20,345 nt of DNA from Candidatus Mediterraneibacter gallistercoris (GTDB lineage: Bacteria; Bacillota_A; Clostridia; Lachnospirales; Lachnospiraceae): NCBI GenBank assembly GCA_019119745.1, contig DWWI01000074.1:1-20345 (forward strand), given 5' to 3'. The notes under the pieces are model-generated. The model did no database searches and was not told where the DNA came from. It saw nothing but the letters and a program-made list of their open reading frames with translations. Positions 1 to 859 of the stretch are shown one piece after another (within the stretch, counting starts at the first letter, position 1; each line of letters starts with the position of its first letter). A program made the translations under genes and the position numbers.

Positions 1-57
1 GAGGCTACATTTTACCGGAGACTGAGAGAATACAGGACAGAAAACAGAAGCGCATAA
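1..57 (+). CDS. C-terminal end of a second, inverted recombinase copy (partial, cut by window edge)
   Basis: Reading from base 1 in frame gives 18 codons ([18 protein letters not shown]) and a TAA stop. They are identical in DNA and protein to the last 18 codons of the serine recombinase on the opposite strand. The residues form the second half of the C-terminal helix-turn-helix. Because the match is perfect right up to the window edge, the repeat probably continues leftward, either as a full convergent second recombinase or as a tail fragment. The sequence cannot tell these apart, so whether this copy is expressed is unknown. Confidence 0.55.
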   Translation, partial: EATFYRRLREYRTENRSA

Positions 58-67
58 AAAAATTAAC

Positions 68-91
68 TATCAAATGGTATACGTTTTGATA
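68..91 (+). other. Candidate serine-recombinase crossover site, left
   Basis: This is a 24-bp imperfect dyad with half-sites TATCAAATGGTA and TACGTTTTGATA. The outer 7 bp of each half (TATCAAA / TTTGATA) are exact inverted copies, and the centre is the palindrome GTATAC with AT as central dinucleotide. The layout resembles the crossover sites of Hin/Gin-type invertases, which have two A/T-rich half-sites around a 2-bp core. The function is inferred from symmetry and from its position beside a small serine recombinase. Confidence 0.55.
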
Positions 92-167
92 ATATCCCTT
101 CAGCCCGTCCGGCTTTATGTATTAACTCAAGAATATTCGATTTTATTGAAGTTTTTTAAAAAATTGC

Positions 168-196
168 TTGCTTTATGGAAATAATTGCCTTATAAT
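168..196 (+). promoter_or_regulatory. Promoter-like sequence inside the invertible spacer
   Basis: There is a perfect -10 box TATAAT at 191-196 and a weak -35 TTGCTT at 168-173 with 17-bp spacing, in very A/T-rich surroundings. It faces right, across the right crossover site and antisense into the recombinase gene. If the spacer inverts it would face left, out of the window. The -35 matches consensus at only three of six positions. Confidence 0.45.
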
Positions 197-213
197 AATC
201 TGCGTAGATTAGC

Positions 214-237
214 TATCAGAATGTATACCATTTGATA
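214..237 (-). other. Candidate serine-recombinase crossover site, right
   Basis: Read on the minus strand this is the same 24-bp dyad as at 68-91. The outer half is identical, and the inner half differs at two positions (TACATTCTGATA against TACGTTTTGATA). The two sites are in inverted orientation, which for this enzyme class predicts inversion of the DNA between them rather than deletion. The identity of the outer halves and divergence of the inner halves fits exchange near the dyad centre. Confidence 0.55.
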
Positions 238-247
238 GTTAATTTTT

Positions 248-859
248 TTATGCGCTTCTGTTTTCTGTCCTGTATTCTCTCAGTCTCCGGTAAAATGTAG
301 CCTCGCTCATGTCGCATTGCCGGACTGCTTCCCGAAAGGTGATTTCTTTCCTTTCCCACGCCTGTACTGTCAGCCCGAAATGATCCGGAATCTCAATCTG
401 AGGCCTGCCGAACCTGACGCCTCTCGCTTTTGCCGCGGCGATTCCCTCCGCCTGTCTCTGACGGATATTGCTTCGCTCGTTTTCCGCTACAAATGATAAC
501 ACCTGCAGGACAATATCACTCAGGAATGTCCCCATCAGATCTTTTCCGCGCCTCGTATCCAGAAGCGGCATATCGAGAACCACGATATCAATTCCTTTTT
601 CTTTTGTCAGTATCCTCCACTGCTCCAGTATTTCCGCGTAATTACGTCCCAGTCTGTCTATGCTCTTGATATAGAGCAGGTCATCTTTTTTCAGTCTTCG
701 TATCAGCCGTTTATATTGTGGGCGGTCGAAATCTTTTCCCGACTGCTTATCCATATAAATGTTTTTCTCCGAAGTTACTCTTTCCCGCAGCGCAATGATC
801 TGTCTGTCTTCATTCTGCTCGCGGCTGCTGACGCGAACATAGCCATAAGTTGTCGTCAA
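248..859 (-). CDS. Small serine recombinase (resolvase/invertase family)
   Basis: This 203-residue site-specific DNA recombinase has the normal length for the small resolvase/invertase group. The N-terminal catalytic domain has GYVRVSS with nucleophile Ser11 and Arg9, and the SIDRLGRN motif at 66-73 with the conserved arginines. The long E-helix follows at about 100-130, and a DNA-binding helix-turn-helix lies at about 160-200. The start is TTG at 859 with GGAAAGGA 7 nt upstream; no in-frame ATG fits better. Its 3' end lies inside an inverted repeat beside two paired dyads, so DNA inversion of the neighbouring spacer is the most likely job. Transposon resolvase is the alternative, but no transposase is visible. 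A promoter upstream (947-975) would drive it separately from the divergent Uma2 gene. Confidence 0.92.

Follow-up and report, generated by a model that had tools for sequence, protein, structure and literature searches.

A probable phase-variable promoter switch beside its serine recombinase gene at a contig end of Candidatus Mediterraneibacter gallistercoris

The stretch of DNA analysed here, referred to as the window, comprises 20,345 nucleotides of Candidatus Mediterraneibacter gallistercoris (assembly GCA_019119745.1, contig DWWI01000074.1). Its left end carries a gene for a small serine recombinase and, beyond the 3' end of this gene, a long inverted repeat that encloses a promoter-like block (Table 1). 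The encoded protein contains the catalytic Resolvase domain of small serine recombinases, as judged by its matches to Pfam PF00239 (E-value 1.7e-30) and to the PHROG family of DNA invertases, which is a phage family (5.2e-52). The nearest solved structures were those of Sin, followed by gamma-delta and DNA-invertase structures, and the enzyme should work like a promoter invertase. Plasmid and phage collections contained only partial matches to the recombinase, with 68-70% identity, in 1 and 3 records, respectively. The nearest genome compared (G001) had no match to window positions 1-1000, and the window itself yielded no Rfam or tRNA hit. The recombinase gene adjoins a gene for a Uma2-family protein (PF05685, 1102-1686), and this neighbour is kept in genome G031. 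On contig C7 of G031, at locus L010, a truncated C-terminal recombinase fragment (approximately 1360-1570) lies directly upstream of an intact recombinase gene.

Table 1. Positions, strands and supporting evidence for the features at the left end of the window
Feature	Position	Strand	Description and basis
Left arm (A')	1..82	+	Repeats the 3' end of the recombinase gene exactly, as far as the presumed crossover
Putative left recombination site	68..91		Dyad centre between 79 and 80, AT; dyad score and alignment with the sites of relatives
Predicted invertible segment (B), 146 bp	80..225		Between the dyad centres; homologous spacers occur in both orientations among relatives
Promoter-like block	168..196	+	TTGCTT at 168-173, 17 bp, TATAAT at 191-196; reads into the recombinase 3' end
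Putative right recombination site	214..237		Dyad centre between 225 and 226, AT; dyad score and alignment with the sites of relatives
Small serine recombinase, invertase/resolvase type, about 202 aa	248..859	-	PF00239, PHROG DNA invertase, structure matches

The left arm is the exact reverse complement of positions 223-304, which take in the final 18 codons of the recombinase gene together with its stop codon, and a repeat search widened the pair to 1-91 and 214-304 at 98% identity. A perfect match of 82 bases is far beyond chance within 20 kb. The repeat score of the window was 86 (distance limit 310), whereas the highest score among 435 shuffled downstream stretches of related loci was 14 (distance limit 300). 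At the inner edge of each arm lies a dyad of about 24 bp, reading TATCAAATGGTA up to its centre and TACRTTYTGATA beyond it, with 10 of 13 positions paired in each copy; the identity of the arms persists for 3 bases past the dyad centre. These results bear out an earlier, sequence-only reading of this DNA insofar as it described a perfect 82-bp inverted repeat, each arm of which ends in a 24-bp dyad.

Related loci were collected with the recombinase as query, taking the best 80 of 581 genome-contig loci and 22 viral-contig loci, and 95 of these (L011-L105) were examined, with L106-L112 left out. An inverted repeat 3' of the recombinase stop was accepted at a score of at least 12, which was reached at 60 of the 95 loci among the matches listed. 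The repeats at two of them (L074 and L080) were implausible and were dropped, leaving 58 of 95 with clear paired sites, 5 of which are on viral contigs. The arms of these sites measure 13-37 nt and the spacers 65-233 bp, with a median of 114, and the layout consists of the serine recombinase, two short inverted sites bracketing a promoter, and then a cargo gene. The measure is specific: scores of at least 14 were obtained downstream at 49 of the 87 listed loci with 300 bases or more beyond the stop, as opposed to one of the 435 shuffles and one of the 85 upstream stretches. At 51 of the 58 paired loci, the central dinucleotides of the two sites agree when read in inverted sense, being GT at 44 loci and AC at 7; among the remaining 7, the centre register has slipped in five (L028, L037, L041, L045 and L052), L090 has CT and L097 has AT. 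At 4 of the 58 (L022, L035, L060 and L105), one arm reaches into the recombinase gene and covers its final 4-25 bases, so that slight overlap with coding sequence does occur in relatives, without a duplicated gene end. No acceptable pair was found at 37 of the 95 listed loci, namely 35 with scores below 12 plus L074 and L080. Inspection of these 37 revealed weaker pairs in 5 (L014, L043, L061, L066 and L070), while 5 end within 35 bp of the gene and 27 are without any recognised pair. The paired-site layout is thus common in this set of recombinases, but not universal. The viral contigs with a like recombinase and inverted sites are L092, L093, L097, L100 and L105, L097 being the one with the AT centre.

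In the window, as in these relatives, short inverted sites flank a segment that bears a likely promoter, recognised by sequence resemblance and by conservation. When aligned by promoter orientation, the promoter block could be matched across 7 loci that span both states. The -10 hexamer is TATAAT in six of them and TACAAT in L019, and the -35 hexamer is TTGCTT in six and TTGATT in L010. A consensus promoter scan had missed the block in the window because its -35 matches the consensus at only 3 of 6 positions. An automated scorer of promoter orientation was also tried, and it called L012 OFF and L013 ON, contradicting homology. The scorer misjudged loci because dyad halves resemble -35 boxes, and homology was used instead.

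We compared 62 spacers, including those of the window, L010 and L014, all against all at an E-value cut-off of 1e-6. This yielded 28 similar pairs, 20 in the same orientation and 8 inverted. In 6 of the 8 inverted pairs the recombinase-side and cargo-side flanks are both collinear, and the other 2 involve the window, which is without a cargo-side flank. The inverted pairs fall into three groups: L041/L052, L057/L060 and a group whose cargo includes a PqqD-like gene. In the latter, the promoter block points toward the cargo in L012 and in L019 of M. catenae, and toward the recombinase in L011, L013, L014 and L010 of G031. Inversion at the sites is therefore supported by comparative evidence, and both orientations occur in nature between relatives and, for the present strain, are suggested by the contig itself. 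The sequence-only reading had proposed an inversion switch that encodes its own recombinase, with strands exchanged at the centres of the dyads, and a search of related genomes for the flipped spacer. The proposal is well supported by the spacers found flipped between collinear flanks, and the search succeeded in 8 of 28 similar pairs.

The likely cargo of the switch was sought in relatives. The switch is followed by a close relative of PqqD at 7 of 102 loci among the matches listed (L011-L014, L019, L022 and L023) and likewise at L010 of G031; other close relatives, for example L016, carry different cargo. The operon at L019 of M. catenae encodes a PqqD-like protein (PF05402), a peptide of about 130 aa, a radical SAM protein (PF04055) and two further proteins, which weakly resemble ScmC/HprK and, at a score below the cut-off, AP2, respectively. 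The peptide had no family match, and none of its 74 relatives in the protein collection has a precomputed Pfam domain. Among 58 genomes of the genus, the PqqD query was found in 21 (E-value 1e-10), the recombinase in 11 (1e-60) and the first 320 bases of the window in 4; in the wider family, 5 of 397 genomes matched the PqqD query at 1e-15. A tblastn search of the window with the five M. catenae cargo proteins gave no match. The syntenic locus on contig C10 of G031 is 87% identical over window positions 784-6464 and contains an internally deleted recombinase gene and one hybrid site, followed by decayed remnants of pqqD, the peptide gene and the radical SAM gene. This decayed operon lies exactly where the window stops. 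Because the pqqD operon occupies the orthologous place in G031, it should lie immediately to the left of the window, and we infer that the cargo of the window is a PqqD-like/short peptide/radical SAM operon, which probably makes a RiPP. Relative to this expected cargo the window appears to show the OFF orientation, a call made on resemblance to a promoter.

The origin of the left arm bears directly on the state of the switch. With A denoting the recombinase side, B the segment and C the cargo side, relatives of the PqqD group read A-B-C and the window reads A-B-A', its first 2000 bases being exactly A + B + rc(A)[:79]. We modelled the k-mers of the contig as a mixture (k = 55, 77, 81, 99 and 127), borrowing the C side from G031. 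Across the five k values, no contig k-mers were absent when both orientations were modelled, as opposed to 48-120 with either orientation alone. By promoter resemblance, the junction on the left would correspond to the ON state and that on the right to the OFF state. The main competing explanation is a real inverted duplication, in which two convergent recombinase copies use their 3' ends as repeats and share an invertible promoter. The assembled sequence reads that way, the contig would likewise break off within the repeat if an identical copy had been collapsed, and a true recent inverted duplication yields an identical contig end. However, a convergent second recombinase was found within 2.5 kb at none of the 95 loci among the matches listed (77 span that far; 18 of 95 have less than 2.5 kb of sequence past the recombinase gene and 11 of 95 less than 1 kb). 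A second recombinase elsewhere was seen on the opposite strand 3.4 kb downstream in L056, upstream in L073 and on the same strand downstream in L074 and L085, none of them arranged as this explanation requires. Moreover, no repeat arm exceeds 37 nt at the 58 paired loci among the matches listed, pqqD occupies the corresponding place in the syntenic G031 locus, and the orientation mixture accounts for every k-mer without a second gene. We consider a duplication improbable. With neither a convergent second recombinase nor a longer arm among these listed loci, and no k-mer left uncovered by the mixture, the recombinase tail on the left most likely arose as a fold-back chimera of positions 223-304 at the contig end. 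We infer from it, as indirect evidence, that both orientations coexisted in the sequenced cells.

A fold-back chimera could also have arisen at random during amplification or library preparation, with no tie to inversion. Inverted end copies are a common type of artefact, which counts in favour of this origin, as does the fact that the copy begins at base 1. Yet the copy halts within 3 bases of the dyad centre, the loop holds an entire spacer whose length is typical, and the left junction is exactly that expected of the flipped state; a random chimera is thus hardly credible. To our knowledge, the left-arm length of 82 fits no usual assembler k, which counts against a mixed-orientation contig. 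Among the 95 listed loci, the contig ends within 250 bp past the recombinase stop at 8, versus 2 at which it ends within 250 bp before the match start. This excess is too weak to be relied on, and no fold-back copy was seen at the 8 loci. The sequence-only reading had gone further in taking the recombinase coding ends as working repeats, possibly of two convergent gene copies. Neither suggestion held up, as relatives have sites of 13-37 nt in place of 82-bp repeats and a fold-back contig explains the left end better than a second gene. Indeed, an assembly fold-back, which that reading had itself named among the outcomes that would speak against it, is our best explanation of the 82-bp coding repeat.

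Taken together, the locus is very probably a phase-variable promoter switch beside its recombinase, with a left arm that stems from a contig of mixed orientation. The recombinase, in its presumed role as catalyst, would bind the two inverted sites of about 24 bp just 3' of its own gene, and strand exchange at their 2-bp centres would flip the 146-bp segment, close to one end of which the putative promoter is located. Depending on the orientation, this promoter would read either away from the recombinase into the cargo operon or into the recombinase gene from its 3' end. The left arm would then represent the ON junction, at which the far end of the segment meets the recombinase end, merged with the OFF junction in one contig as cells of both states were sequenced. 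Inversion of the segment would most likely switch a modified-peptide operon on and off. A peptide-modification operon of gut Lachnospiraceae would thereby be linked to a compact, self-contained promoter inversion cassette, and mixed inversion states may leave a fold-back signature in draft contigs by which live switches could be recognised in metagenome assemblies.

The mechanism is of a known kind. The sites of the Hin and Gin invertases are short dyads with a 2-bp centre, like those of the window, and inversion by these enzymes requires a Fis-bound enhancer. The hin gene lies inside its invertible segment, whereas the recombinase gene of the window lies outside a segment of 146 bp. In the Salmonella flagellar switch, as far as outlined in part of PMC11868660, a small serine recombinase likewise flips a promoter segment. 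Mpi of Bacteroides fragilis is also a serine recombinase that flips promoters, described in part of PMC4747536 as a global invertase of 13 regions, whereas the window has one local segment adjoining its recombinase. The window protein falls short of the NCBIfam 'Mpi family' model NF009949, with 52.8 bits against a cut-off of 272. The invertons of gut Clostridia treated in PMC11892184 resemble the window in being small invertible regions near recombinase genes. That paper associates its Clostridia group 139 with tyrosine recombinases, and the word 'serine' has 0 occurrences in its main text, whereas the recombinase of the window is a serine recombinase. By title and abstract, the literature covered contained no paper on this pairing of recombinase and cargo; most subscription papers fall outside that coverage, which makes the absence weak evidence.

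In relatives, a like layout fronts cargo of several other kinds, including surface-layer, adenylating-enzyme, methylase and TnpB-like genes. The first cargo ORFs of 10 relatives, chosen mechanically as the longest nearby ORF, were scanned and encode an AMP-binding enzyme, 3 S-layer-domain proteins, a glycoside hydrolase 16, an acyltransferase, an Eco57I-type methylase, 2 TnpB-like proteins and a pentapeptide protein. The scanned TnpB-like ORFs, with a Cas12f1-like TNB domain, are L057:6842-8296 and L073:6771-7952, and from the look of the ORF start the first cargo ORFs of L060, L041 and L027 are also TnpB-like. Large S-layer or repeat surface proteins come first in L028, L031 and L036, as scanned, and possibly in L075 and L090.

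Two loci have lost the promoter segment. On contig C10 of G031 (L001/L162) and on contig C46 of G048 (L004), the latter without a recombinase, a single hybrid site with an AT centre remains, composed of a recombinase-side half and a cargo-side half. These are probably locked, promoterless loci. Together with Sin and gamma-delta resolvases as the closest solved structures, such hybrid sites would also suit resolvase- or transposon-type sites that serve resolution or excision and not a promoter switch. This explanation is highly unlikely, given that the sites of the window and its relatives are inverted, that spacers were found flipped and that the first cargo genes vary widely behind a common layout. 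It is possible, and we propose it only tentatively, that the recombinase and a flipping promoter of about 115 bp form a portable module placed before many unrelated cargos in gut Firmicutes, and that in the clade of the window a palindromic AT centre, in place of GT/AC, permits deletion of the promoter too, which would add an irreversible, locked third state to a reversible switch. The case for a specific role of the AT centre in deletion is no more than suggestive: AT is found at both loci with a clean deletion, but L032, L077 and L080 each have a single recognisable site with GT, and L097 keeps its segment despite AT. On contig C63 of G048 the recombinase gene is reduced and the segment is present, by eye in the OFF orientation.
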